A stretch of DNA of 55,572 nt from a virus. The number at the start of each line of letters is the position of its first letter. Position 1 is the stretch's first letter. A program made the translations under genes and the position numbers. Under the pieces are notes generated by a model. The model was not told the origin of the DNA. It saw only the letters and a program-made list of their open reading frames with translations, and did no database searches. This document shows positions 23,789-50,647 of this stretch, piece after piece. The DNA is taken from the IMG/VR virus record IMGVR_UViG_3300043413_000016, positions 1 to 55,572 of that record. One strand, 5' to 3'.

Positions 23789-23857
23789 ACTGTGCCCTCA
23801 CGCATGCGCCGTGGCGGCGCGTGTCTTGGCGCGAGGATATGGGCGGGGTCAGGGGCG

Positions 23858-23869
23858 TTTTGTGGGCGG
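23858..23869 (-). promoter_or_regulatory. repeated motif CCGCCCACAAAA, copy 1
   Basis: Minus-strand CCGCCCACAAAA in the 83-base gap between the tiny membrane gene and the 91-residue gene. The same 12 bases occur at 47914-47925 and 48448-48459, also between late genes, and at 45564-45575 inside a gene. A regulatory role in late transcription or mRNA processing is inferred. Confidence 0.4.
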
Positions 23870-23871
23870 TG

Positions 23872-23991
23872 CTACAGGAGCCAGAAGTAGACCCACGCAG
23901 CAAGGGCAACTACAGCGGCGCCGATCATGAGCGTAGGGCCTCCGCTGGCAACCACGGCCAGCATGAAGACAAGCCAAACGGATGTCCTCAC
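23872..23991 (-). CDS. tiny membrane protein, 39 aa
   Basis: GTG 23991 overlaps the stop of the 3,090-residue gene as GTGA. 39 residues, nearly all hydrophobic: VWLVFMLAVVASGGPTLMIGAAVVALAAWVYFWLL, two membrane spans or one hairpin. The TAG stop (23872-23874) is followed after three bases by the 12-base motif CCGCCCACAAAA. The 83 bases to the next gene hold that motif and nothing else I can support. Confidence 0.5.
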   Translation of the reverse strand: MRTSVWLVFMLAVVASGGPTLMIGAAVVALAAWVYFWLL

Positions 23992-26900
23992 CCAACCTCC
24001 GCAAACCGCGCACGTTCGCGCAGGAAGTCTTTGCTGTCGGGCAGCGTGATGCCCTGCTCGGTGTTGGCGGTGTTGCGCCGCCTGTTCATCATCGACCGCG
24101 CGATGGTCGTGCTGGTGATCTGCATTTGCGGGTTGGCGCGGTTCCAGTTGGCGATGCGCTCGCGCAGCTCGTCCACCGCTTCCATGTCGCCATCAATGCG
24201 CGCCTTGGCCATCTGCGAAACCAAGCGCTGCCGGCGCTCGTCCAGCGCCGTCTTGGCGTTCATCACGGCGTTGCGGCCCTCGAACATTTCGCTGGCCCTA
24301 GCCGGTGCAAAGCCGCTGAAGCGCCCGATGATCTCGGCTGTGGTAAGTTCCATCAGAGGCTCGCCCGTGTAGCTGGTGATGCCCTCCTGGCCTTCGCGCA
24401 CAGCTTTCAGCGGATCGCGGATGAACTTGGGCACCACCGATTCCACAGCCTTGGAGTAGTCACCGCGCGCCATGTGGTCGGCTGCCGTGTACCAGCCCAG
24501 GATGGTGCCAGCCGTGGGGCCCAGGATGTTGCCCATGTCATTGGCGAAGGCTTCGCGCGGGTTCTCGCCTTCGCGCCCGCCATCGCGCCACCACAGGTCA
24601 CTCAGACTGACCCGGCCGCTGATGTCCCAGGCCGGCATCAGTGCCCGCGGCACACCCCTGGCCATGAACTCGCCCCACTCCTTGTCGGCCAGCATGTTGC
24701 GATACTCGGTCTTCCAGTCCCAGGGCTCTTCATCGTCGCCTTGCAGCGCGTTCACCAAGCCCTGCACTAGCCCGGCAAAGAACGACACCCCGGGCAAGCC
24801 CAAACTGCCAGCCATGGCGCCAGTTACCATGAACGTGGAAAGAAGCTGGTTCCTGGCAATGCGCCGCACTTCTGGGCTCTCGTCCTTCAGGGCTTGGTAC
24901 GCGGCGCGGCCCAGGAAGTAGGTCATGTTCTGACTGAACTGCTTGAACTGCGTCACCACCCGCGCGACGTTGCCCTGCATGTACCGGGCGCGGTTGCTGG
25001 CCGAGTAGTCGAACTGGCTGCGCTTGATGGCTTCGCGCGCCGCATCCATTGCCTTCTCTTCGTTCGCAGATTTGCCCATTTCCAGTCGGTACGCCATCAG
25101 TGCCGTCACTTGGCGATTCATAACCTCTGGAACGTGGAAGGTCCATCCCACGATTCGCATGGCCCGCGCGATGGCAAACGATGCCCTGCTGCGCGCCTGG
25201 TTGCCCACGTCGCGGCTGGTTGCTGATGCCAAGTCGTGCGCCTGGGTCAAGTCGATCACGCCCTCTTCTTGCAGGGTCGAGATGGCCCGGCGCTCGTCGG
25301 CAGAAAGTTTCGGGCTCTGCGCCGCGTTGAAGCCGCTCTTGGCGTTGGGCTTGGCCCCCATGATGTCGGCGTAGGCTTTACCCATGGCAGCCGTGGCCCG
25401 GGTGAAGCCGTATCGCGCGCCGATGTAGGGCAGCGCCACCATGGGGACCTGCAGCATGTTGATAAGGCCGGCCGCTGGCGACAGGCCCAGGTACATGACG
25501 AAGCCCACCTGCGTGGCAGCCGCAGACAACGGGTGCGTGTCTGGGTTCAGGGCCGCGTCATGGCGCTGCGCCAGTTCGCCCAGGATCTGCGAATGCTTGG
25601 TGAAATCGCCCTCGGGTGCGCTCTCAATCTGCTTGTAGGCATCCTCCAGCGCAAACGTCATCTTGTCGCCGTGATTCAACCGGGCGATGTGGCCAGCCGC
25701 GTGGAAGGCGCTCGACGCGAAGCCGCGCATCACGTCAGCAGAGAAGCCGGCTGTGTTCTTGCGGTGCGTGAAGTGCTTGCGGTAGCTCAGGTCAGGCAAC
25801 GCCTTGATGAACAACTGGTTCAGGTCGTCCAGCAACTGCTCCTTCATAGACGTGGGTGAAGCGCCAATGCGGGCCTCTTTCATGTCCATCTTGTCGATGA
25901 CCTGCAGCACGTCACCAATGAACTTGCCCGCTGAGCCATCCATGGCGCGGTTGTACTTCTTGGCCATCTGCAGCTTCACGCTGAAGCCGTCAGCCTCCAG
26001 CGCGCGGGCGGCGGCGGCCTGCTCCCCGGCGTTCTCGTAGGCGGCCACCACGCGCTCGCCGTCGCTGTCGCGGTTGGCGATGACAAGGAAGTCGCCAAAG
26101 CGGTGCAGCGGGAAGTACGGGCCGCCCTGCATGTACTGGTCAAAGCGCTTGCGGATGTCGGCCAGTGCCACGGCACGCTCAGCGCGGTTTTCGATCAGGC
26201 GCGCAATGCGACCCTCCAGCGCCTTGCGCAAGTCGGCAAGCGTACCCGCGTGGAAGTCGCGCACTTTGGCATACATGGCCTGGGCATCCTTGGGCAGCAT
26301 GCGGTACTTGGCGCGCAGCATTGCGTGCGCTTGGCGCTGCTCTTCGGTGGCCCTTGCTGGTGGGTCGTCCTTGTCGGGGTGCACTTGGGCAACCGTCGCA
26401 TCCAGCATCACCCTGGCGAGCCGGTCGTTCACCTCGGCGTCGATCTTGCTCCACTCTTCGTACAGTTCCTCGGCTTTCTGCGCGGCGCCCTGGCGCTCGT
26501 TTTCCATCTGACGGGTCAGGTTGTCGTAGTCCCTGACCGGTGGAATCTCGTCGCCGTACATATCCGCGATCTGGTCGCGGGTCATGGCTCCCAGCCAGAA
26601 CGGGCGGGCGCCTTCGCTGATGGCGCGCACGCGATCTGCTTTGGTCTCGCCGGCTTTGGAGAAGATGCCGCCCTTGGCGTTCAGGAGGTCTTGGGCGGTC
26701 AATTTGCCGGTCGCCCTGCTGATGTCAAAGAACCGCGCCTTCTGCGCATCAGTCAGCATCAAGTCGCTTTGCCGGCTGCCATCTGAGGCCATCACGGCTT
26801 CCAATCCCCGCAGTATCGGCGCATCGCTGCGCAGACCCAGAAGGCCTTTGAGCTTGCTGATGGCTTCGTCAAGCCACACGCCGATGCGCTGCCAAACGCT

Positions 26901-29900
26901 GTCCTTGGTGGCAAACCGGTTGCCCAGCAGGCGCGTAGCGTTCACGGCCCAGAACTCGCTGGGGTTGATAAGTTGGTAGTGCTGGTCGTAGTTCAGGGGG
27001 CCTTGCTGTATGGCCTTCACCAGCGCCTTGTAGGCTTCAAGGTCGCCAGCAATGGCTTTGGTCACGTTGCCCAGCGCTTCGCGTTGCTCTGGCGTTGCGT
27101 TCTTGATGGCCTTTGCCAGCGCCTTGGCCCACTCTCCGCGGATCGCGCTCTGCATCTCCGGCGTCATCATCCGCTCAGCATGGTGCAGGATTTCATGTAC
27201 CGCCGTGCCCACGTTGTCGGCACCTTTGAACAGTCGCACGATCTCGGCCGCTGGGTTGTAGTCGCCAGCAGTGCCGCCTTCGGTCGGCGTGCGAACACTT
27301 ATTGCCAGGCGCTCGGCCAGCGCAGGGTTTTTGTCCAGCGCCCACAAAGCAAAGTCCACAGCCTCGGGGTTGATGTCGCCTTGTCGTCGGGCTCGAATCA
27401 ACCGCTCGCGCACGATGTCAGCGCCACGCTCGCGGTCGCGCATCAGGCGGTTAGCTGCCTTGGTGTCGGAAACATCCTGCATCTGCAACGCAAGGTTGCG
27501 AACGGCCATGGCGAAGTAGGGCTCGCTGATTTCGCCTTGTTCAAGTCGGCGCACCAGCGCAGCCAGTTTGCGGGTGGCCTGCAGGTTTGGAACCTCTGCC
27601 GGCTCGTAGCCCTGGGCTGCCATCTTGGCGCCAATGCGGCTGAGATCTTGGACGGTGAGTTTGCCGGGCGGCTTGCCGGTCAGCGCTGCACCAAGGGCGC
27701 GGCTGTACTTGGCGCCGCCTGAATCCGGCACCGGTTGGTCAATCTCAAGGTCCATCAGGTCAGCAGCACGGGTGTCACCAGCTTCGCGCAGCAGGCTTGC
27801 AACCCTGTCGTCGCCCGATCCGATCACATCGTCAAAGGTTTGGTCGGATTCCTCAAGTGCGGCGCTGAACAAGTCGGCGTCAACGTAGACCACGGGCACA
27901 GCAATGTCCGCCTTCTTCGCTGCCGCCAGCCGATGCGAGCCTGTCAGCGCATAGGTTCCGTTGCCGTTGTCCCAGACAAGGATCGGCCTTCCCTCCCAAC
28001 CGCTTTCTTGCATGCCCGCAACAAGTGTTGCCAGTTTCGCGCGGTCACGCGGGGGATGAATCTCGATGATGCTGCGGGCCTCCAACTCGTCGTCGGGCTG
28101 CATGCTGCGGGTTGTATCACGGCTGAATGCAGGCGCCATGCCCTGGCCCATGCCCTGCCGCGCCATGGCCTGCAGCCCGTCGCGCGCCAACTTGCGCAGC
28201 GTTGCCGGGTCTGCAAGCAGCTTGGCCCGCAGCTTCATGCCAATGCCTGCGGCCTGCAGCGCTTTTGCAAGACCAGCACGCAAGGCAGCCATCAGGTCTT
28301 CAACCCAGCGGCGCAAAGTGCTGGGCACGCGCTCGCGGTCGGCTTGGTACTGCTCCACACTGTACGCGGCCAGCTCCTCAAGCCGCGCCTCGCCGGTCAC
28401 GTCGTCAGGGATGCGGCCGGCTGCCTGCTTGAAGAACCGATTCACCGCGCTGTCGGGTGACTTTGCCAAGGCGTCGATCTTCGCCAGGCGGTCCATCAGG
28501 GCGGTGTAGGTAGCCTCGCCAACCGTGGCGCGCAGCGTGGCATGCAGCGCTTCGTGGTATGCCACGGCAGTGCTGCCCTGGGTCGTGTTGGCTGCAAACA
28601 AGCCAATGGTCCCGTTCTGCGTGACACCAGCGGCATCGGCAGGCATGCCACGGCCTGGGCGGTCGGCAATCGTCAGCAGCCCGGCTTGCTCCAGGACGCC
28701 AATGGCCTCGGGGCTGAACTCGGCTTCAAGGGCGGTGCGAAGGTCGGCGGCGCTTCTTGGCAGGGCAAACAGTTCGTCGTTTTCGCTCAGCGCCTTGAGG
28801 GCGTTGGTTTCAGCTCTACTGCCCGTGCGGCTGTACAGCGCCACGTTGCCAGCGTCGTCGGTGCGGGTCTTCAGTTCGCCAACAAACTCGTCCAGGGCCT
28901 TGTTGATAGCGATGCGTTCTGCGCCCGTTGGGTATGGCCGTTTGAAGCCCCAGGGCGTCAGGATGCCGGCGTTCTCAGGGCCGTAGTTCAGGAACCGGCT
29001 GGTGCCGCCCTGAGTGGCGATCTTGTCTTTCACGTAGCCCTGAAAGGCTCGTGCCGCCATTTCGTGCGGTGTGGTCCAGTAGTCGCCGCCCCGGCCCTGG
29101 TCAAGCTCGCGGGCCTCGCGCGCAAACTCGGTGGGCACCATGCGCTGCTTCTCGGTGCCACTCTGCGCCTCGGCTAGCATCTTCAGGCGCTGGCTGTAGC
29201 GGTTCATGTTGCCACGCAGGCGGTCCATCAGGCCGTTCTGGTTGGTGCCATCGAAGCCGCTGCGCCCGCGCACCTGCTTGTAGATCGCGCTCAGGCGTTC
29301 CAGCGAGTCGTTTGTCCAGCGCGTCACTGCTTTGCTTCCGGTCGGCGTGCTGACGGATGGAACCTTGACAGTCGTCCAGTCGGTCGTGATCGCAAGCATG
29401 TCGCCGTCGATCATGGCCTTGGCAATGGCGTCGAACTCGGCCAGCAGTTCTGCGCTGGCCGGCTTGTTGTTGCGCTTCCAGTAGCGCACGTCCTTCTGTT
29501 CTGACAAGTCGCGGCGCAGGCTGTCCAGGGCTGATGCCAGTTCCTCGCGGGTGGCCCCGGTGAACTTGTCCACCTTGGCCATGTCCTCCACGTAGGTTTC
29601 GGCGCGCTTGGTCATCGTGGTCAGCAACTTCTCGTAAGCCGCGCGCACCTCCGGCCGCACACCAGACCGATTGCGGGTGAAGCCGCCGCTGGCCAAGTCA
29701 TCCGTGGCATCGCTGCTGGTCTTCAGCGAACGGGTGCCGTCCTTGTTGATGACCCAGGTTGCCGATGCTTTGCCGTCCTGCCGGCCAAAGTAGTGGTCCA
29801 GCGCGTGGAACCACTCATGCGCAAGACTGCCAGCGCCGCGCTCTTTGGTCAGGTTGATGACAGCCCGGTCCAGTTCGTAGTGAGCACGGGCGCTGTTCAA

Positions 29901-32900
29901 GCCGTGGCCGCGCGCACCAAACGCTAGCGCAAGGTCGCCGTTCAGGCCAATGGCCTTGGGCGGGATGCCCATCACGTCGGCCAAGTCCATCAGGCCATCC
30001 CAGGCGTCATTCATCAGGGCCTGGCGCTCGTCTTGGTTGTTCCAGTTCCCGAACTCCACGCCGCGCAGGCCAAATGTTTCCTTGAAGTCCTCGCCGCGCA
30101 CGTCGCCATTGCGGCGCGCGGGGCCGGTGCGTTTGCGGTCAGGCGGAAGCGGCAAATCCGCCTCACCAAACGTGGTGTTCGTTTCCACGATGGCTACCGC
30201 GTTCTGCGCCATGTAGGCCATAGCCTCCTCGCGGGTGTCGAACTGCTGTTCAACCACCTTCACGCGCTTGCGGTCGCTGATGTCGCGCCAGATTTCGTAC
30301 TTGCCGTCGCTGGTGGGGACAGGCCTGTGCTTCAAGCCCACGGCTGCTATGGGCACAAAGGCGTCGGCTTCTTCTTTGGTGGCAAAGGTGGTGCGGCCAA
30401 CCTGCTTGGCCTGCCCGCTCCAGTCCAGTGACTTGGTATCGCGGATGATCCACCGGCCGGCGTCTTTCACCTCGCCAAGCATGCCGCCTGGGGTGACGAT
30501 TTCGCTGACCTGGAAGCGCCGCGCCCAGGCCGGGCGGTCGTCGTCAGACTTGCGCCGCGTGGTGCCGGTGCTGACTGCAGTGTCCTTGCGGGCACCGCCG
30601 ATCTTCTCGCCCACGTCCTGAATGGTGGCCTGCACCCCTGCCGCTGGCTTGTCTGCTGCGGCCTGGTGGGTGGGTGCGGCCGGCGCATCAAACAGCCCAC
30701 CCTGCCCCGCAGCCGCGCCAACATCAACAGCCCTGTCACTGCCAGTCAGCGTGAACTCGTCGCGCTCGGCGTCGGCCTTGGCTTTGTCGGCCAGCCGGCG
30801 CTGCTCTTTGGCGTCATCTGCTGCTGCGCGGGCTTCGCGGTCGGCGCGGGCGCGCAGGCCTTCGGCGTCCTGGGCTTCGAGGGTCAGCCCTTCGGCTTGG
30901 GTGTCAGCCCGCGCCGCAGCGCCTCGATCTTCAGCAGCCGCTGCCGCTTCTTCGGGTCCATTCGCGCCAGCTTCAGCAGCGCTTGCTTTCGCAGTCCCTC
31001 GGGCTTCTTCTTTGGCAAGTTCATCAGCAATCTCCTGTTCCGTGAAGCCCATGGCGCGCATGCCTTCTTCCATGCTGACCACGGCGCCCAGCGGCGCGTC
31101 GAAGTCCGTCAGGTCGTCATCTGTGAAGGCGGCAATCTCTGCCCTGCTGAAGCCCTCTTCGTTCATGATGGCTTCGCGCTCGGCCTCCAACTCGGCGGCG
31201 GCCTGGCCTGCTGTTCCTGCAGTTGCTGGCGCCGGGCTCGCTTCTGGTCGCGCGGCTTCAGGGGCTTGCTGTGGTGGTGCTGCATTGGCTGCCTTCTTGG
31301 CATCGACTCGCTGGCGCAGGGTTGGTGCAACCTGTTCAGTTTTGGCCGTTTTCTGTACAGGTTGCGCTGACGTGCCTACGGCAGGGCCTGTTTCTATACC
31401 TGTCAGCGCTTTTTGAACCTTCGGCCAGCGGTCGTCTCTGCTCAGAACAACTTGGGCATTGCCCTCTGGGCCACGAATGGCGACAAAGCCATCGCCAGCC
31501 GACACCACGGTGTAGGGCTTGCCGTCCATGGTGAATGTGCGGCCAGGGGTCACTTTCTCACTGGAAGATTTACCAGTGAGCGCCGGTTCTGCCGGCTGCG
31601 GGGCTGCGGTCGGCTTGACCACATCAGCCGCCGTGGTGCCGCGCGTGTTGTTGGGCTGCACTTGCTGCCCGGCTGGGCCCAGGGTCGTGGGTTGCGGGCG
31701 CACCACCCAGCCGCCTGCCACCTTGACGATGTTCTCGATGCCTAGGCCTTCGCGCTTGGCGCGCACCACCGCCCCCGACTGCGCGCCATATGGCATGCCG
31801 TCCTGCGTTGTGAGGTCTTGAGGCTCGATGACTTCGGCATCAATCGCGGCGGCCTGGCCGGCGGGAATGCCTTTAAACTCAGTTGCTTCGCCAACGGGTG
31901 CCATTTCCGTGGCCTCACCCGCTGGAACCGCATCAAACTCTGTGGCGTCCGCTGTTGGCACGCGACGCACAGGCGCCGGCATGGCGTCCAGTTGATTTTG
32001 AGCCGAGCGCCTGACGTGCGCCGGTGCAGTCTGGCTGGTTCCGAGCGATGCAAGGCGGATGGCTTCGCTTTGCTGCTCAGGGTCAAGTTGCCTGATTTCG
32101 CTCAGGATGGGCGCGTTGGCGCGTCGCGCGTCTTGGGCCGATGCAACGGCATCAGGCGCCGGCCGCAATGCGTCCTGCGCGCGCTGCATCAAGGGCACGC
32201 TGGTTGCCTTCATGGCGGCGGCCACGGCTTCGTCGGGCGTAGTGGCAGTTTGCAGTTCCTGCATGCCCTGGTCGGCCTGAGCTGCCTGCTCGACCTGCGT
32301 ACGTGGCTTGGCAATGCCCAGGGCGCCGCCCATCAGGCCACCGGCCATGCCTTCCATCGTGGCGCTGGAGTAGACCCCGGCCATCGGGTCCACGTTGAAG
32401 CCTTCATTGGCCAGCGCGGTGTTGGTGGCGAATTTCTCCTGCCCGCCCTGCAGCGCCTCGGGCCCGGCTTCAGCCGCCGCGCCGCCAATGATGCGCCGCG
32501 CTGCGCCTGGCGCTGCGTTGCGGGCGCCCTGCATCAGCGACTGGGCCACTCGCTCAACACCTGAACCACCAGCCAGCGCGCCGAGTGCGCCGCCAAGGGC
32601 AATCTGCCCGGTGTTGGGGCCGGTGTAGCTCTGCGCCTGGGCGGCCACCTGGGCGGCTTCTTCGGGCGTGGCGCCGGCTTCGGTCAGGCCTCGGCCCACT
32701 TCCTCGTAGATGTTGCCCTTGATGTTGCCCACGCCCTGGGCTGCACCAACAGCAGCCGGGGCCAGCCGGCCAGCCAGCAGCGCTTGGCCACCGGGGACCA
32801 TCGCGGCGGCCACGGTCGGGGCCATGGTGCCGGCCGCCTGGGCAATCATCTGCCCGGGTGCAACGCCGAAGGCCCGCACACCGGCAATGACCTGATTCAG

Positions 32901-33260
32901 CACGCCAGCGCCTTCGGCCTCCTGCAGGATGCGGCTGATTTCGGCGCGGTCACGCTTGGCGCCAGCGCTCTGCAGGCCGCCGATGAACTCTTCCACCGTG
33001 CGCAGGCCGCCTGACACCGGGTTGTCGGCGCCTGCCACGTCGGTCAGCATGCGCACGCCTTGGACGGCGCCCTGGCCAAACCCCAGCGCCAGATTGCCGG
33101 CTTGGGGCAGCCAGCCTTCTTTTGGGGGCTTGTAGCCCATGTGGGCTATCACGTCTTGCGGGTCAACGCCCTGCACTTCAGCGACTCGCTGAATCAGCGC
33201 GTCGTCATCCAGGGCCCGCAGGCTGGGGAACTTGTTGCGGTAGTCGTTGATGCTTGGCAT
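23988..33260 (-). CDS. giant polyvalent internal virion protein, 3,090 aa
   Basis: Very large protein, probably carried in the virion and injected. ATG 33260 follows GGAGG. Residues 60-330 are Ala/Gly-rich with hydrophobic helices that could line a membrane channel. A long low-complexity linker (340-960) follows. Later come an LPD-type region with KETFGLRGVEFGNW and HEWFHALDHYF (His near 1148), a second zincin motif HEALH (near 1569), a ParB-like segment with LTGSHRLAAAKK (near 1776), and a third, HEILHHAE (near 2022). The last 500 residues (from about 2580) look like the LPD38 domain of large polyvalent proteins. Long open frames on the other strand are shadows. Confidence 0.85.
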   Translation of the reverse strand: MPSINDYRNKFPSLRALDDDALIQRVAEVQGVDPQDVIAHMGYKPPKEGWLPQAGNLALGFGQGAVQGVRMLTDVAGADNPVSGGLRTVEEFIGGLQSAGAKRDRAEISRILQEAEGAGVLNQVIAGVRAFGVAPGQMIAQAAGTMAPTVAAAMVPGGQALLAGRLAPAAVGAAQGVGNIKGNIYEEVGRGLTEAGATPEEAAQVAAQAQSYTGPNTGQIALGGALGALAGGSGVERVAQSLMQGARNAAPGAARRIIGGAAAEAGPEALQGGQEKFATNTALANEGFNVDPMAGVYSSATMEGMAGGLMGGALGIAKPRTQVEQAAQADQGMQELQTATTPDEAVAAAMKATSVPLMQRAQDALRPAPDAVASAQDARRANAPILSEIRQLDPEQQSEAIRLASLGTSQTAPAHVRRSAQNQLDAMPAPVRRVPTADATEFDAVPAGEATEMAPVGEATEFKGIPAGQAAAIDAEVIEPQDLTTQDGMPYGAQSGAVVRAKREGLGIENIVKVAGGWVVRPQPTTLGPAGQQVQPNNTRGTTAADVVKPTAAPQPAEPALTGKSSSEKVTPGRTFTMDGKPYTVVSAGDGFVAIRGPEGNAQVVLSRDDRWPKVQKALTGIETGPAVGTSAQPVQKTAKTEQVAPTLRQRVDAKKAANAAPPQQAPEAARPEASPAPATAGTAGQAAAELEAEREAIMNEEGFSRAEIAAFTDDDLTDFDAPLGAVVSMEEGMRAMGFTEQEIADELAKEEARGTAKASAAEAGANGPEEAAAAAEDRGAAARADTQAEGLTLEAQDAEGLRARADREARAAADDAKEQRRLADKAKADAERDEFTLTGSDRAVDVGAAAGQGGLFDAPAAPTHQAAADKPAAGVQATIQDVGEKIGGARKDTAVSTGTTRRKSDDDRPAWARRFQVSEIVTPGGMLGEVKDAGRWIIRDTKSLDWSGQAKQVGRTTFATKEEADAFVPIAAVGLKHRPVPTSDGKYEIWRDISDRKRVKVVEQQFDTREEAMAYMAQNAVAIVETNTTFGEADLPLPPDRKRTGPARRNGDVRGEDFKETFGLRGVEFGNWNNQDERQALMNDAWDGLMDLADVMGIPPKAIGLNGDLALAFGARGHGLNSARAHYELDRAVINLTKERGAGSLAHEWFHALDHYFGRQDGKASATWVINKDGTRSLKTSSDATDDLASGGFTRNRSGVRPEVRAAYEKLLTTMTKRAETYVEDMAKVDKFTGATREELASALDSLRRDLSEQKDVRYWKRNNKPASAELLAEFDAIAKAMIDGDMLAITTDWTTVKVPSVSTPTGSKAVTRWTNDSLERLSAIYKQVRGRSGFDGTNQNGLMDRLRGNMNRYSQRLKMLAEAQSGTEKQRMVPTEFAREARELDQGRGGDYWTTPHEMAARAFQGYVKDKIATQGGTSRFLNYGPENAGILTPWGFKRPYPTGAERIAINKALDEFVGELKTRTDDAGNVALYSRTGSRAETNALKALSENDELFALPRSAADLRTALEAEFSPEAIGVLEQAGLLTIADRPGRGMPADAAGVTQNGTIGLFAANTTQGSTAVAYHEALHATLRATVGEATYTALMDRLAKIDALAKSPDSAVNRFFKQAAGRIPDDVTGEARLEELAAYSVEQYQADRERVPSTLRRWVEDLMAALRAGLAKALQAAGIGMKLRAKLLADPATLRKLARDGLQAMARQGMGQGMAPAFSRDTTRSMQPDDELEARSIIEIHPPRDRAKLATLVAGMQESGWEGRPILVWDNGNGTYALTGSHRLAAAKKADIAVPVVYVDADLFSAALEESDQTFDDVIGSGDDRVASLLREAGDTRAADLMDLEIDQPVPDSGGAKYSRALGAALTGKPPGKLTVQDLSRIGAKMAAQGYEPAEVPNLQATRKLAALVRRLEQGEISEPYFAMAVRNLALQMQDVSDTKAANRLMRDRERGADIVRERLIRARRQGDINPEAVDFALWALDKNPALAERLAISVRTPTEGGTAGDYNPAAEIVRLFKGADNVGTAVHEILHHAERMMTPEMQSAIRGEWAKALAKAIKNATPEQREALGNVTKAIAGDLEAYKALVKAIQQGPLNYDQHYQLINPSEFWAVNATRLLGNRFATKDSVWQRIGVWLDEAISKLKGLLGLRSDAPILRGLEAVMASDGSRQSDLMLTDAQKARFFDISRATGKLTAQDLLNAKGGIFSKAGETKADRVRAISEGARPFWLGAMTRDQIADMYGDEIPPVRDYDNLTRQMENERQGAAQKAEELYEEWSKIDAEVNDRLARVMLDATVAQVHPDKDDPPARATEEQRQAHAMLRAKYRMLPKDAQAMYAKVRDFHAGTLADLRKALEGRIARLIENRAERAVALADIRKRFDQYMQGGPYFPLHRFGDFLVIANRDSDGERVVAAYENAGEQAAAARALEADGFSVKLQMAKKYNRAMDGSAGKFIGDVLQVIDKMDMKEARIGASPTSMKEQLLDDLNQLFIKALPDLSYRKHFTHRKNTAGFSADVMRGFASSAFHAAGHIARLNHGDKMTFALEDAYKQIESAPEGDFTKHSQILGELAQRHDAALNPDTHPLSAAATQVGFVMYLGLSPAAGLINMLQVPMVALPYIGARYGFTRATAAMGKAYADIMGAKPNAKSGFNAAQSPKLSADERRAISTLQEEGVIDLTQAHDLASATSRDVGNQARSRASFAIARAMRIVGWTFHVPEVMNRQVTALMAYRLEMGKSANEEKAMDAAREAIKRSQFDYSASNRARYMQGNVARVVTQFKQFSQNMTYFLGRAAYQALKDESPEVRRIARNQLLSTFMVTGAMAGSLGLPGVSFFAGLVQGLVNALQGDDEEPWDWKTEYRNMLADKEWGEFMARGVPRALMPAWDISGRVSLSDLWWRDGGREGENPREAFANDMGNILGPTAGTILGWYTAADHMARGDYSKAVESVVPKFIRDPLKAVREGQEGITSYTGEPLMELTTAEIIGRFSGFAPARASEMFEGRNAVMNAKTALDERRQRLVSQMAKARIDGDMEAVDELRERIANWNRANPQMQITSTTIARSMMNRRRNTANTEQGITLPDSKDFLRERARFAEVG
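31557..31580. repeat. inverted repeat CTCACTGG/CCAGTGAG, copy 1 (inside the giant gene)
   Basis: CTCACTGG, 8 bases, CCAGTGAG. It is read in the giant protein as part of ALTGKSSSEK, in the low-complexity linker. The same element lies at 43487-43510 and 51834-51857. Confidence 0.7.
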
Positions 33261-43523: not shown

Positions 43524-44597
43524 TCAGGACACCAGGGCCGAGGCGGCAACCTCGTAGATCGCCATGTGACCTTCGTTCAGCCGCACAGCGGCGAAGTAGG
43601 TCTGGGCACCGACGTAGCCGCGCTGGCCGTGCGGGTCGTCCTTGGTCTTCTCGTTGGCCGGGATGTGGGTCACGTTGATCGCTTCGCGGCCACGCAGCAT
43701 CACGTCACCGAAGCACTTCTCGGACATGACCAGCATCGGGTACACGTCCACGGCTTCGCTGCCGGCGCTGTTGGGCACGCCGTTGGCCAAGCGGGTGTTG
43801 GCCGTGGTGGTGCCGCCAGCGCTCAGGTACGGGGCCAGGTGCGGGCTCGGGATGAAGCGGAAGTTCTCAAACTTGCCCGATTCGTTCTCGTGCACACGGC
43901 TGGTAGTGCCGTACTCGGCAGCCGGGGTGAAGTCGGCGCCGAACACCGCCCGCAGGTCGCTGGTCAGGTTGGTGTGGTGCACTACCACGTAGCCCGGTTC
44001 GACCGGAACCGTGCCCACCTTGACGCTGCCCGAGAGCATCTCGGTCACGTTGGTGGCAAGGTTGTTGTGCATGCTGCGCGCGATGTTGCGGAAGCCAGCG
44101 GCCGACAACAGGCCCACCACGCTGGAACGACCCGCCACTCCACCGGCATAGAAGCGGTTGGTGCCTGCCTTCAGCACGCCCCAGCGGATCATCTCCATCA
44201 GCAGACCCATGCGCTCGCCGGTCAGCATCTTCATTTCCGTGGGCACGTCGTCTTCGTACAGGTCGGCCACCCGGTTGCTGTAGCGGTAGAGCACGCCGTA
44301 CTCTTCCAGCGTGACGCTGATGTCCTGCGCCACGATGCTTTCGGCGTTGGGGGTCTCGCCTTCGTTCAGGCGGTGCGTGGCCGGATCCACGTTCCAGGTA
44401 TTCGGCGATGCACTGGTGGCGCCCTTCGGCAGCCAGCGGCGAAAGATTTGCGTCTCCGACACGTTCTTGGGCATGGGCTTCTTCAAGCCCACGCCGACGC
44501 GGCCGATGACTTCCTGGGGCAAGACATGCTTGAGGATCTCGCCCTTGAACTTGGCAATGCGCGCTTCTTGGGGCGTTGCCATCTGTTGAGTGCTCAT
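43524..44597 (-). CDS. major capsid protein, N4-gp56 family
   Basis: 357-residue capsid protein of the N4-gp56 type. The family pattern is visible: a start with ILKHVLPQEVIGRVG, then RRWLPKGATSASPN, and the core GETPNAESIVAQDISVTLEEYG and VADLYEDDVPTEM, and a C-terminal VVDVYP-like and LNEGHMAIYEV strand. Length is normal. It has HK97 fold by family knowledge. Scaffold gene upstream, decoration-like gene downstream. Confidence 0.85.
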   Translation of the reverse strand: MSTQQMATPQEARIAKFKGEILKHVLPQEVIGRVGVGLKKPMPKNVSETQIFRRWLPKGATSASPNTWNVDPATHRLNEGETPNAESIVAQDISVTLEEYGVLYRYSNRVADLYEDDVPTEMKMLTGERMGLLMEMIRWGVLKAGTNRFYAGGVAGRSSVVGLLSAAGFRNIARSMHNNLATNVTEMLSGSVKVGTVPVEPGYVVVHHTNLTSDLRAVFGADFTPAAEYGTTSRVHENESGKFENFRFIPSPHLAPYLSAGGTTTANTRLANGVPNSAGSEAVDVYPMLVMSEKCFGDVMLRGREAINVTHIPANEKTKDDPHGQRGYVGAQTYFAAVRLNEGHMAIYEVAASALVS

Positions 44598-45460: not shown

Positions 45461-45694
45461 CTATTCGGGGGCTGCCGCTTGTGCTGGGCCCGGCTTGGCC
45501 AGGTCAAGCAATTCCTTCAACTTGGAAATCTTTCCGCGCAGTGTGGCGGTGTCCAACTCGGTGTTTTGTGGGCGGTCGTTGACTTCGCGCGTGTACTGCA
45601 GTTGGGCTGTCATGTACGCGGCCAGCTTCTCCCAGGTGCGCGATTCAAAGTCGGCGCGGCCCAGGTCAAAGTCCTTGGGGTCGGGCTTGTTCAT
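45461..45694 (-). CDS. hypothetical protein between portal and scaffold, 77 aa
   Basis: 77 residues, ATG 45694 in ATGA overlap with the portal stop. Helical and charged, with a KISKLKELLDLAKPG segment near the end. It is coupled to the portal and followed by the scaffold. It carries the 12-base motif CCGCCCACAAAA in its coding sequence (45564-45575). Function unknown; short helical proteins here sometimes help assembly. Confidence 0.65.
   Translation of the reverse strand: MNKPDPKDFDLGRADFESRTWEKLAAYMTAQLQYTREVNDRPQNTELDTATLRGKISKLKELLDLAKPGPAQAAAPE
45564..45575 (-). promoter_or_regulatory. repeated motif CCGCCCACAAAA, copy 2
   Basis: Same 12 bases as in copies 1, 3 and 4, but this one is inside the coding sequence of the 77-residue gene. 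It may be chance or a real internal site. Confidence 0.25.
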
Positions 45695-47883
45695 ACGCCC
45701 TGGTTCGTCGGGTTGCCCGGGTCCATCTTCAGCGCGCGTTCAGCCAGGAACAGTTCGCGCTTGTCCCGGCTGTCGATGGTCTTGGTTGCCAGCATCGCCT
45801 TGAGCTGAGCGAAGGAGATTTCCTTCTGGCCGGCAAACTCCATCGCCTGAATCTGGAACTCAAGGTTTTTCACGTAGGACTGAAGGGCGCGATCCTTCTC
45901 TGCCTCGGCTGCCTCGAACTGCATGCGCTGCTGGGCCTCGGCGGCGCGGGCTTCAACCTGCTGGGCTGCCGACTGGGCGCGGATGTTGGCTGCCTCAATG
46001 CGCGGGTCTTGCGGCGGCGGTTGCTGCTGCTTGGCCTTCTGCATCTGCTCCCAGGTGGCCTTGTCGTATTCGATGCTGCTGAATGACATGCCATGCGCCT
46101 TGAACAACTCGGCATCCAGCTTGTCTGGGTCAATCCGGCTGTTCGGGCGCTGCGCCAGGCCGTGCGCTTGAATCAGGAACTCGCGGGCGATCTCGCGCTG
46201 CACCAGGGCTGATGAGCCACGGGCCACTACCTGCATGTCACCCTTGCCGCCCTCGGGGCCGGACTGCATGCCCCAGTCGTAGTACCGGCGAAGGTGCGGG
46301 ATGATGAGGCAATCGTCGAACTGCTTGGCGATGACACGCAGCGGGGCGCTGGCGTTGTTCATCAGCATCTGCATGCCGCCCAGCAATTCGGGTGCGCTGC
46401 CCTGCTGGCCCTGCATCAGCATCGGCAGGTTGGTCAGTTCGTCCGCCATCTGCAGGGCAAACGTGATGATGTTGGACAGTTCGACCTGTGCGCTGGGGAT
46501 GTTCCAGACCTGCATGGCCTTGGTGATGTCGCTCACCATTTCGTTGGGCACGAACTTCCACAGCTTGCGGCCGGTGATTGCGTAGTTGCCATCCACCGGC
46601 AGCAGCGCGCCTTCGGTGATGGCAATCTGAGGCCCGGCCGACAACCCCGCGTTCTCTAGCAGCGCACGCACGCCACCGTTCAGCACGCGCTGCGGCACTG
46701 CCATCTTGCGCGGCACGCCGCGGCCCCACGGCTGGCCTTCCACCGGCTCCCAGGGGAAGAAGTCAAACGGAAATTCGCCAGTCTCCAGCGGGTTGATCGC
46801 CACCTTGATGGGCTTGTCGTTCAGCATCGTGACGATGCTGGGCACGCTGGACAGGTACAGGTCTTCTTCCCGCAGCGCCGCCTGATCAACGCCCATTTCC
46901 AGCAGGGTTTCGGGCTCTACCTCGCCGTAGTAGTAGTACAGCTCGAACACGTCCGAGTCGCCCACTGTGTCGCCGTCTTGAGTGCGGTTGCGCCCGTCGT
47001 GGCGGCTGCGGCTGTTCGGGCCCTCCTTCAGCGCCTGGGCGATGGCCTCGGTGTCGTAGGCCGGGCTGCCGTCCTCGTTCATTACCTTGGCCAGCCGGCG
47101 CAGTTGCCTTGGCGTGATGTAGTCGCGCTCGACGAAATAGCTGCCGTTGTGGATGTCGTCACCGCAGGCTGGGTCGGGAAAGCAGTCGCGCGGATCTTTG
47201 CGCTTGCTGGTCGGCACGGTCTTGTCGCGCATCTGAAGCACGGCAACGCCGCTGGCCACGTCCCAGCGCTTTTCCTGCTTTGCCACAGGAAACGGGCCCT
47301 TCAGGATGCCCGTGCCCAGCCTGCCCGCATCGCGGATCACGTTGCGCAGTTCGGCGTAGACATCGCCTTCTGCCAGCCGATCCTCGATCCAGTCGGCCAT
47401 CTTCTTGCAGGCATTGGTGGCGCGCTGCATGGCCACCTGTGCAACCTGCTCGGCCGGGGCTTGTGTGCCGTCTGCCAGGGTCACCGGTTCCTGGCTGTTG
47501 GCATCTACCGCGTCAAGGAACTCAGGGATTGGCGTCGGCTCGATGCCCCAGGGCTTGTCATCGTGCGGCACCAGCATTTCCTGAATGCGGGCGACGGCGA
47601 TGTCCGTCTTGGGCTTTGTGATGTTGAGGTAGACCCTGCTGCGCGTGCTCTTCTGGTCAGTCTTGGCGCGGTTGTTCGCGTCCTTCACACCGCCCCGGGC
47701 CCGCGCGCTCAGTTCATCAATGCCGTCGTACTGGTCGGCGTCCTCATCCCAGATTTCCTCGATGCCGCTGGCCTGGCGCGCGTCCTTGGCTTCCTTGATG
47801 CGGCGGCACACCGTCGCGGTCAGCAGCGCCTTCAGGGGTGAGGCTTCGTCGTCGGCGGGGTCGCGGCTGCTGGGTTCTTGCAT
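45691..47883 (-). CDS. portal protein, 730 aa
   Basis: 730-residue portal of the short-tailed phage type, which forms the ring at the DNA entry vertex. I place the start at ATG 47883, because the frame upstream (about 90 codons) is rich in Cys, Arg and Ser and is not portal-like. Features: a helical N-terminal region (KALLTATVCRRIKEAKDARQ), a beta-rich stem zone with DCFPDPACGDDIHNGSYFVERD (around 280), and a C-terminal helical, Gln-rich barrel segment (QQVEARAAEAQQRMQFEAAEAEKD). Size fits P22-like or larger podovirus portals. Follows the terminase after a 576-base gap. Confidence 0.8.
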   Translation of the reverse strand: MQEPSSRDPADDEASPLKALLTATVCRRIKEAKDARQASGIEEIWDEDADQYDGIDELSARARGGVKDANNRAKTDQKSTRSRVYLNITKPKTDIAVARIQEMLVPHDDKPWGIEPTPIPEFLDAVDANSQEPVTLADGTQAPAEQVAQVAMQRATNACKKMADWIEDRLAEGDVYAELRNVIRDAGRLGTGILKGPFPVAKQEKRWDVASGVAVLQMRDKTVPTSKRKDPRDCFPDPACGDDIHNGSYFVERDYITPRQLRRLAKVMNEDGSPAYDTEAIAQALKEGPNSRSRHDGRNRTQDGDTVGDSDVFELYYYYGEVEPETLLEMGVDQAALREEDLYLSSVPSIVTMLNDKPIKVAINPLETGEFPFDFFPWEPVEGQPWGRGVPRKMAVPQRVLNGGVRALLENAGLSAGPQIAITEGALLPVDGNYAITGRKLWKFVPNEMVSDITKAMQVWNIPSAQVELSNIITFALQMADELTNLPMLMQGQQGSAPELLGGMQMLMNNASAPLRVIAKQFDDCLIIPHLRRYYDWGMQSGPEGGKGDMQVVARGSSALVQREIAREFLIQAHGLAQRPNSRIDPDKLDAELFKAHGMSFSSIEYDKATWEQMQKAKQQQPPPQDPRIEAANIRAQSAAQQVEARAAEAQQRMQFEAAEAEKDRALQSYVKNLEFQIQAMEFAGQKEISFAQLKAMLATKTIDSRDKRELFLAERALKMDPGNPTNQGV

Positions 47884-47913
47884 CCCGGCATGGTGCGGCG
47901 GTGCTCTGCAGCG

Positions 47914-47925
47914 TTTTGTGGGCGG
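47914..47925 (-). promoter_or_regulatory. repeated motif CCGCCCACAAAA, copy 3
   Basis: Minus-strand CCGCCCACAAAACGC, 31 bases before the portal start codon at 47883, the place of a leader or control site. See copies at 23858 and 48448. Confidence 0.4.
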
Positions 47926-48309
47926 CTTTCGATGGTGGAGGCTGGACGATCGGGCAAAAACCTGCCTAAGTCCACCGTGGCGGCGAACTTGGCGGCTTTG
48001 CTTTCGACGGAGCCAGGCCGGCGCGTCCCGAGCATGCGGTGCGTTTCCAGGGCACACCACACATGGCAGGCTTTCCGCTCGCTGGAGCGTTCTGCACGGA
48101 CCCGCCAGCGTTGCCAGCACTCCGCAAGCCTTCGCGCTCACGGACCAGCAACACAAGACCCCCGCTGCGCCTGCATCTTCTGTGCGCAGCCACGAGTGCA
48201 GTCAGAACGTCGTTGACAGTTCCCGTGCGGTCCTACAGCGCACTCTGCGCCTTCCTACCCCCGGCCACCTATCTCAACCCGATAGACCCTGCAGCACCGG
48301 AAACGACAA

Positions 48310-48437
48310 AGCCCTGAAGGCATACCGTTCCGTGGGTGCGACACGGCCCCCTTTCGGGGCAAGACGGTATGGCTTCAGGGCTCACACGGATTGTCTGCCA
48401 AGGTCGCACCCAATGGCAAGCACATCCTATGGGTGTG
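48310..48437 (-). ncRNA. candidate pseudoknotted RNA between terminase and portal
   Basis: Four pairings fit together. Helix A: 48310-48328 with 48364-48382 (18 of 19 bases). Helix B: 48333-48342 with 48403-48412 (10 of 10). Hairpin C: GCCCC and GGGGC at 48346-48350 and 48356-48360. Hairpin D: CACATCC and GGGTGTG at 48421-48437. B starts inside the loop of A and ends outside it, so A and B form a pseudoknot. On the minus strand TTTGTCGTTT follows helix A, so the structure could also end transcription. Function unknown; cis element for packaging, an attenuator and a small RNA are all possible. Confidence 0.5.
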
Positions 48438-48447
48438 TGTTGTGCTG

Positions 48448-48459
48448 TTTTGTGGGCGG
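48448..48459 (-). promoter_or_regulatory. repeated motif CCGCCCACAAAA, copy 4
   Basis: Minus-strand CCGCCCACAAAACAGC begins directly after the terminase stop codon at 48460-48462. See copies at 23858 and 47914. Confidence 0.4.
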
Positions 48460-49989
48460 CTACATGCCCAGCTCGGCGTCAATCTCATGCACTGCGATGC
48501 GGCCTGCGGGGATGACGTTCTTGGGCTTGGGCCCGCCAGGGATGGCAAACGTCAACGCCAGCGAGTCGCCACGGTCGGGCGACTTCAGGCCGCGCTTCTT
48601 GGCGTCGTCCTTCGACTCCAGCAGCAGCAGGCCACCACGGTAGCTGTACCGCAGGCCGGTCAGGTCTGTGCGCAGTTCTTGGTCGTTGGGCAGCGCGGCG
48701 GTCGGCAGCCACTCCTTCATGCTGGCCCACATCGCAGCCCGCAGGTTGTAGTTTGCCCCGTCGTCCAGCCGGATGGACACGTTCACATCACGCACCACGT
48801 CCTCTCCGAACCAAGCGCGCAGGGCGTCAGCCACACCAGCGCCCACGCCGATCACGTCAACCGCGATCTGCTCAATGTGCATGCCGCGCGCCCTGTAGGC
48901 CACCACTTCCTGCTTGACTCGGCCGGCCGTGCTCATCAGGTCAGTCTTGCCCCACACCCACTGTTTGATGACCAGCCGGCCACGTCGCGCGGTCAGCACG
49001 CACTTGTCATCACCAAACCGGGCCACGTCCAGGCCAAACCGCAGGCCACCCATGCCGGGCACGTCAGCCGGGCCGCGACTCATGGCATCGGTCACAAGGT
49101 CGCCGCTGATGAACGCATTGCCGATGGATGCGCTGTAGTCCCGGTCGATTTCCTGGGCGATGACCACGGGGTCCAGGGCCTGAACCTGCTTGGCGTACCA
49201 CTCAGGGCCCTTGCGCGGGTCGTCGCGCCAGTCGAACACAAACACTCTGGTCTTTCCGCCAAAGCGCTTTTTCCAGAACGGATTGCCTTCGCCGTTGGGC
49301 GTGCTCACGTCAATCTTGCAGTTCGACGTTTGGCTCAAGGCTGCGTCGATGCTTTCAGGCTGCTCGTAGAAGGCGGATTCGTCTTTGAAGTAGATTGAGG
49401 TGCGAGCACCGCGGCCGATGTTCGAGCCTGCCTCGCCAATGATGCTGCTCTCGTTCTCAGGGTTCAGCACCCGCATGAATGGGGCGTGCTTGTCCTCTTT
49501 GTAGCCCTCGGGCCGGAACTGCGCCGGCAGCAGGCGGATGAATGCGCGGATCTTCCAGAACAGGCTTGACGGGTCGCCCAGCCGGTCTACGTAGTCCTCT
49601 TTGCGCGATCCGAAGCCCACCACCACGCCCTTGTTGAAAGTCCACATCCAGACAGCCACGGCAACGCACAGCCAGGACACGCCCATGTCGCGCGACTTCT
49701 CGACCAGGCCGTCTTCGCGCGCCTTCCAGCGAGCCACCAGCCAGTCCACGGCCTCGGCTTGCTTCGGGAACAAGATGAACGGGGCGAGGGCCGGTATGCC
49801 GCGCTCAGGGTTGCGCGGGTCAAACGTCATGCCCCAGTCGGTGATCCACTGAGCCGGGTGATCGGCGTAGTACGCCTTCAGTGCCGCCAGGTCAGCCGGT
49901 GACGCCTTGTTGAGTCGGTCCAGCCTGTCCAGCCGGTCAGCCCAAACGCCGTCGTAGTTCGGCGCCTTCCAGTCGATTTCAGGTGCCAC
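48460..49989 (-). CDS. terminase large subunit
   Basis: 509-residue packaging motor and nuclease. The ATPase part has VEKSRDMGVSW (residues 96-106, the terminase form of Walker A) and TSIYFKDESAFYE with Asp203/Glu204 (Walker B and catalytic Glu). The nuclease part has GLDVARFGDDKC with Asp321 and later metal ligands such as VDVIGVGAGVADAL and GDSLALTFA. Start GTG 49989 overlaps the small subunit by 11 bases. Length and order are typical. Confidence 0.93.
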   Translation of the reverse strand: MAPEIDWKAPNYDGVWADRLDRLDRLNKASPADLAALKAYYADHPAQWITDWGMTFDPRNPERGIPALAPFILFPKQAEAVDWLVARWKAREDGLVEKSRDMGVSWLCVAVAVWMWTFNKGVVVGFGSRKEDYVDRLGDPSSLFWKIRAFIRLLPAQFRPEGYKEDKHAPFMRVLNPENESSIIGEAGSNIGRGARTSIYFKDESAFYEQPESIDAALSQTSNCKIDVSTPNGEGNPFWKKRFGGKTRVFVFDWRDDPRKGPEWYAKQVQALDPVVIAQEIDRDYSASIGNAFISGDLVTDAMSRGPADVPGMGGLRFGLDVARFGDDKCVLTARRGRLVIKQWVWGKTDLMSTAGRVKQEVVAYRARGMHIEQIAVDVIGVGAGVADALRAWFGEDVVRDVNVSIRLDDGANYNLRAAMWASMKEWLPTAALPNDQELRTDLTGLRYSYRGGLLLLESKDDAKKRGLKSPDRGDSLALTFAIPGGPKPKNVIPAGRIAVHEIDAELGM

Positions 49990-50647
49990 TGACCAGCTTC
50001 AGGTAGGCGGCCTGGCGCTCGGCGGGCGGAATGGCGCTCAGGTCAAACACCACGGTTTTGGTTGCAGGCTCTTCGAGCGGGCGGATGCCGTAGGCCTCAC
50101 GCTCCAGGCCGATCAGCACTTTCAGGGCCTCGGCCAGTTCCTTCACGCCCTTGATGCGCTGGGGCAGGCTGATGGTCTTCATGTAGACCTCATTCAGCTT
50201 GTCAACGCCCCTCTCGTCGGGCTTCTTCATCAGCTCGCCCAGGTCAGCGAACAGCAACGGGTCAGCGCTTTCGGCTTCGCACTCGGCCAGCAGGCGGATG
50301 ACCAGCACGCGCATCCGGGTGATGTCGGAGCGATGGGCAATGCGGATGCGCGCCTCGACCTGTGCCCCAATCTCTACCGACTCCCGCTCAGTCGGCGTCT
50401 CAGTGCGTACTTCGTTGCGTACCAGTTCCTTGCGTACCAACGCATCGGCCTTGGCGCGTACCTTGGCGCTCAGGTCTCGCTCCCAGCCGTCCCTCTTGGC
50501 GCGCTTGCGGATTGCGCCCTCGGTGATGCCGTGGGCCACTGCGATTTCGCGCACCGACTGCGAGGCCGTCCTGAACTCGGACTCGATACGCTCCCAGTCA
50601 GTGCGCTTTGGTGCCTGGGCTGCTGGCTCCTTGGCTTTTGCCGCCAT
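49979..50647 (-). CDS. terminase small subunit
   Basis: 222-residue DNA-recognition part of the packaging machine. It has an N-terminal helix-turn-helix (SVREIAVAHGITEGAIRKRAKRDGW, about residues 31-55), then long charged helices for ring formation. The C-terminal SAIPPAERQAAYLKLV segment may contact the large subunit. ATG 50647; its stop overlaps the large subunit start. Confidence 0.8.
   Translation of the reverse strand: MAAKAKEPAAQAPKRTDWERIESEFRTASQSVREIAVAHGITEGAIRKRAKRDGWERDLSAKVRAKADALVRKELVRNEVRTETPTERESVEIGAQVEARIRIAHRSDITRMRVLVIRLLAECEAESADPLLFADLGELMKKPDERGVDKLNEVYMKTISLPQRIKGVKELAEALKVLIGLEREAYGIRPLEEPATKTVVFDLSAIPPAERQAAYLKLVSGT

Follow-up and report, generated by a model that had tools for sequence, protein, structure and literature searches.

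The window analysed here is the whole of a 55,572-bp virus record (IMGVR_UViG_3300043413_000016, positions 1-55,572) of an uncultured bacterial virus, and all of the evidence presented below comes from sequence. Its late genes lie on the minus strand, with TerS and the terminase large subunit TerL followed by the portal and major head protein genes (Table 1). The late block also contains an open frame of 3090 residues (23988-33260, minus). TerL and portal are separated by a gap that we measured as 47884-48459, which agrees with the 576 bases given in an initial annotation. Within this gap, just past the TerL stop codon and starting ~20 nt after it, lies the element described here.

Table 1. 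Coordinates of the features discussed (window positions unless prefixed by the handle of a related phage).
Feature	Position	Strand	Remarks
TerS	49979-50647	minus	
Terminase large subunit TerL	48460-49989	minus	
Portal protein	45691-47883	minus	
Major head protein	43524-44597	minus	
Complete element (closed three-way junction, arms kissing)	48303-48443	RNA strand unsettled, energy favours plus	folding
Closing helix P0, 5' strand ACGACA	48303-48308	plus	pairs with 48438-48443, one G-U; fold
Closing helix P0, 3' strand TGTTGT	48438-48443	plus	fold
Helix A, first arm	48310-48328		19 nt, 18/19 complementary, unique in window
Helix A, second arm	48364-48382		inverted-repeat search
Hairpin 2, CCGT-loop-ACGG	48330-48346		apex of helix A; fold, sequence
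Kissing strand 1, GGGTGCGAC	48334-48342		exactly the 9-nt loop of hairpin 2
Small hairpin	48346-48360		apical junction; minus reading CCCC-GAAA-GGGG (GNRA loop); folds, sequence
Domain 1, long interrupted hairpin	48383-48437		abuts helix A without linker; folds
Kissing strand 2, GTCGCACCC	48403-48411		within 13-nt loop 48401-48413 of domain 1 (TGCCA/TGGCA)
Remainder of inserted stretch	47928-48302		no significant structure or recognised protein
CCGCCCACAAAAC, extra copy	48447-48459	minus	immediately after TerL stop codon
CCGCCCACAAAAC, portal-leader copy	47913-47925	minus	kept in relatives
CCGCCCACAAAAC, further copy	45563-45575	minus	
CCGCCCACAAAAC, further copy	23857-23869	minus	
Palindromes of L023	L023:2019-2057; L023:4312		
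Palindromes of L024	L024:371-416; L024:3068-3109		
Palindromes of L022	L022:608-623; L022:3924-3939		

The initial annotation had proposed a pseudoknotted RNA candidate between the terminase and portal genes, and as a fold this proposal is well supported. Helix A pairs as described (18 of 19 bases, 95% complementary) and is the sole inverted repeat in the whole window that pairs at 18/19 or better across a loop of no more than 80 nt. Helix B, TGGGTGCGAC (48333-48342) with GTCGCACCCA (48403-48412), pairs at all 10 positions, and its 9-mers occur exactly in the window only here. Each strand of helix B sits in a hairpin loop, the pseudoknot being a loop-loop (kissing) contact. Folding also recovers the further hairpin reported in the loop of helix A and the one beside it, the latter being domain 1. 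Moreover, the real extent of the element is slightly larger than first noted, at ~141 nt, with a 6-bp closing helix (P0) on the plus strand. The plus-strand order is P0, one unpaired A, helix A, directly followed by domain 1, and P0 again.

That chance pairing of this length is unlikely had been argued from the outset, and z, shuffle, genome-window and related-phage comparisons all agree; these estimates come from dinucleotide shuffling and from pseudoknot-free folding of windows. Against shuffled sequence, positions 48310-48437 fold with z of -5.5 on the plus strand and -5.1 on the minus strand, and 0/200 or 0/500 shuffles were as good. The whole element reaches -70.3 kcal/mol on the plus strand (z -5.34, 0/500 shuffles as good) and -64.1 kcal/mol on the minus strand (z -3.99), where P0 is absent. 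The longest loop-loop run is 9 in the element, whereas 2000 shuffled versions of the 144-nt region gave runs of 7 at most; this search was made after the feature was seen, and the 0/2000 is a measure of unusualness and not a clean probability. The maximum is also 7 in 1155 same-strand windows of the phage's own genome, and in 1.23 Mb of related phage DNA, scanned as 40,420 windows, no run reaches 9. By itself, the duplex between the loops contributes -17.2 kcal/mol, with a loop penalty left out of the sum, and this outweighs the ~7-8 kcal/mol that opening the loops costs in the nested fold; therefore the kissing contact is plausible. In the whole-gap fold, the sequence outside the element shows no folding beyond chance level, for which reason a large RNA spanning the entire gap was rejected. 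The fold of the element itself is far better than chance. Pairing by accident, to which a lone example without relatives might point, is hardly credible against the uniqueness of helix A in the window, the z of the fold and a kissing run of 9 unmatched in shuffles and related phages.

The evidence on the strand of the RNA is divided. The closing helix P0, the clean closed ends and an energy 6 kcal/mol better speak for plus; the direction of the late genes and the GAAA tetraloop of the small hairpin speak for minus. No convincing promoter or terminator for the element was found. A perfect TTGACA lies on the plus strand at 48212-48217, ~90 nt upstream of the element and without a good -10 box, and would be a possible start point for a plus-strand RNA. 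The T-rich stretch reported past helix A on the minus strand is present, but it amounts only to TTTGTCGTTT and no terminator is called there.

The element is missing from every relative found, even with TerL 77% identical, as in L022 and L024; in L210 the last 146 TerL residues are 72% identical. For portal, identity is 61-62% in segments from L022-L024 and L210, and 63-65% over the full alignment of L022-L024. The TerL-portal gaps of these phages, all without the element, measure 67 nt (L022), 88 nt (L024), 70 nt (L210) and ~123 nt (L023), and in L002, L003 and L248 the gap is essentially nil. Among ~70 stretches downstream of TerL, the longest inverted repeat elsewhere is 16, in the L024 palindromes, and the others do not exceed 11. 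Absence from close kin beyond the relatives found is not proven. By eye, a short hairpin can be seen across the portal start codon in L022, L023, L024 and L210 (e.g. CCCGCC-CACGAT-GGCGGG in L022). Another phage, L280, has a 224-nt TerL-portal gap (L280:4145-4369) with several hairpins, giving z of -4.9 in one 128-nt window and -2.5 over the whole gap, and no Rfam match.

Homologues were sought by several routes. A covariance model built from the single sequence (R1), whose reach is limited, was searched against ~1 Mb of relatives and records, and the sole convincing match was the element itself; the other matches were a weak overlapping one on the opposite strand (E 0.003) and hits at chance level (E at least 0.89). 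Because no homologue was found, covariation yields no comparison, and the check for compensating changes proposed with the initial annotation neither supports nor refutes the fold. Rfam gave no match over the window at the gathering threshold and none up to E 5 in a permissive search of 47880-48480, and blastn found no homologue in phages and plasmids. Pattern scans of viral contigs (kissing arms, helix A arm, hairpin 2 sequence) and of genome contigs (kissing arms) returned chance-level matches only, and portal alignment in genome contigs returned none. A literature search on a terminase-portal RNA found nothing relevant. One candidate, at L235:13565-13700, has a 12-bp stem around hairpins with 6-nt complementary loops and has a 20-nt hairpin sequence in common with the element, possibly by chance. 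It shares GCCGTGTCGCACCCACGGAA and a 6-bp loop contact is possible, but it differs in topology and context and reaches a z of only -2.3, and we rejected it as a homologue. In that phage, relatives of the neighbouring protein occur mainly in Pseudomonas and Acinetobacter phages.

Exact 15-bp direct repeats flank 534 extra bases in the gap, and the core of these repeats is a 13-base motif, CCGCCCACAAAAC. No other 13-mer is as frequent on the minus strand, where all four copies lie. The TerL-portal gap of the relatives has the motif once, before portal, and that of the window has it twice. In L022, L023, L024 and L210, CCGCCCACAAA stands ~21 nt before the portal start and CGCCCACAAA recurs within the small gene after portal (4/4); in L022 and L024 the motif appears for a third time, ahead of a frame of 50 aa. 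By its distribution the motif is a conserved signal of the phage group, and it is possibly a promoter, phage-specific, or another late signal. Since it is conserved in the group and has copies elsewhere, the repeat does not have to stem from target-site duplication. Palindromes, TGTCCACGTGGACA or AGTGGAAACGTTACCACT, also occur in the relatives, some of them in the TerL-portal gap; they differ between phages and lie mostly just before the CGCCCACAAA motif, and that at L023:4312 follows the portal gene without CGCCCACAAA. These palindromes look like operator sites. The ~370 nt between the element and the portal copy of the motif have no excess structure and no recognised protein. A plus-strand frame at 47935 had a ParA-like look, which was dismissed since neither Pfam nor plasmids gave a match and PDB gave nothing meaningful.

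Our preferred reading, with a probability of about 0.42, is that the element is an accessory structured-RNA module of ~141 nt, acquired by the phage between terL and portal. We infer that it is transcribed and acts as RNA, be it as a stable small RNA, an mRNA-end element or an antisense element. The 6-bp helix would close the RNA on itself, and two arms would leave the junction with almost no linker, one being domain 1 and the other helix A with two hairpins at its tip. Lying side by side and locked via the 9-10 bp loop-loop contact, these arms would form a compact body, expected to be nuclease-resistant and to fold whatever its surroundings. Such a body could serve as a stable small RNA; on the minus strand it could be an mRNA-end element that sets how far the terS-terL message extends or how stable it is, and on the plus strand a small RNA made in antisense at the terL-portal junction. 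In favour of the module, the element sits behind its own copy of the motif that relatives keep before portal, and relatives hold other dyad elements at the same place. Against it, good folding is expected of a long inverted repeat whether it functions at the DNA or RNA level, and only one genome is known to carry the element. A bolder proposal would see here a novel small RNA of phage origin, built as a closed kissing-loop three-way junction and perhaps oligomeric, that aids packaging or late-gene control at the terL-portal junction; in our view this is quite unlikely.

The main rival is a DNA-level inverted-repeat element, such as a protein-binding dyad, a cruciform or the remnant of a mobile or recombined cassette, lying between the motif copies and yielding the RNA fold as a by-product. 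We regard it as possible but doubtful. The exact 15-bp repeats around the 534 extra bases, the DNA palindromes TGTCCACGTGGACA and AGTGGAAACGTTACCACT in the relatives' gaps, a fold about equally good on both strands and the unstructured remainder of the insert without a recognised protein would all fit. However, neither terminal inverted repeats nor a transposase nor integron attC core sites were found; the attC core boxes RYYYAAC / GTTRRRY are absent from both strands of the gap, and this class was rejected. Moreover, the 13-base core also occurs at 45563, at 23857 and in relatives, so that a target-site duplication is not required, and a perfect 9-nt match between two hairpin loops has no obvious DNA role. 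An unlikely alternative is a branched transcription terminator or 3' processing element that ends the terS-terL message, with portal restarting from the second motif copy. A start ~20 nt past the TerL stop, a minus-strand helix A followed by TTTGTCGTTT and a conserved motif copy before portal would suit it. However, that U tract is poor, the apex is branched by eye and no intrinsic terminator is called on the minus strand in 47700-48700; termination needs no kissing contact, and the relatives are without such a hairpin and T run.

The initial annotation also offered a packaging or assembly RNA and a regulatory leader or attenuator, and neither fared well. For a phi29 pRNA-like RNA, whose complementary loops would join neighbouring molecules into a ring, one can cite the position between TerL and portal, a size about that of the pRNA core and two complementary loops, as pRNAs have paired left and right loops (PMC12670572). 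It is nevertheless very unlikely, with nothing for the packaging role itself beyond location: pRNA loops pair by 3-4 nt against 9 in the element, the arms are placed for contact inside one molecule, TerS and TerL of the phage are ordinary, the RNA is missing from relatives that share the motor, and Rfam gives no match. A leader or attenuator of portal is likewise very unlikely; the element does lie upstream of portal on the late strand, but between it and the portal start are 420 nt that show no excess structure, and the conserved leader motif comes after it, adjoining portal. Two further classes were rejected: a stop-codon read-through or frameshift pseudoknot, given a second UAG 10 codons past the TerL stop (PPTKQHNTHP*), and a hammerhead ribozyme, whose core CUGANGA is absent from both strands of the gap.

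If the accessory module is a functional RNA, it offers a compact natural case, in the late region of a phage, of two arms fastened together by 9-10 bp of loop-loop pairing, with no relative found. Structured RNAs confined to a single phage escape comparative searches, and such an orphan class, if true, merits direct testing. If the element instead functions as DNA, the terL-portal junction of this phage group would be an exchange site for different dyad elements beside a conserved motif.

Purine riboswitch-type three-way junctions have a closing helix and two parallel arms joined by loop-loop pairing. The element resembles them in topology only, and differs in its longer arms, its extra apical hairpin, the lack of an adjoining start codon and the lack of an Rfam match. 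Like the phi29-type phage_pRNA, it would be a phage RNA comparable in size, with a pair of complementary loops and a place beside packaging genes; its loops are complementary over 9-10 nt, and pairing within one molecule is also possible. Unlike phage_pRNA, its loop pairing spans 9-10 bp versus 3-4 nt, its phage has TerS and TerL, it is not kept by relatives and it has no Rfam match. GOLLD and ROOL are phage-borne structured RNAs with kissing loops that form conserved families and are far larger than the element, many GOLLD exceeding 800 nt (PMC12286853). The element too is a phage-borne structured RNA candidate with kissing loops, but it is an orphan of ~141 nt without an Rfam match, and the rest of its gap has no excess structure. 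Lastly, the palindrome and CCGCCCACAAAMC units of L022-L024 are short DNA palindromes of unrelated sequence, in gaps of 67-123 nt and with no such kissing hairpins, yet like the element they place a dyad between terL and portal beside the same motif.
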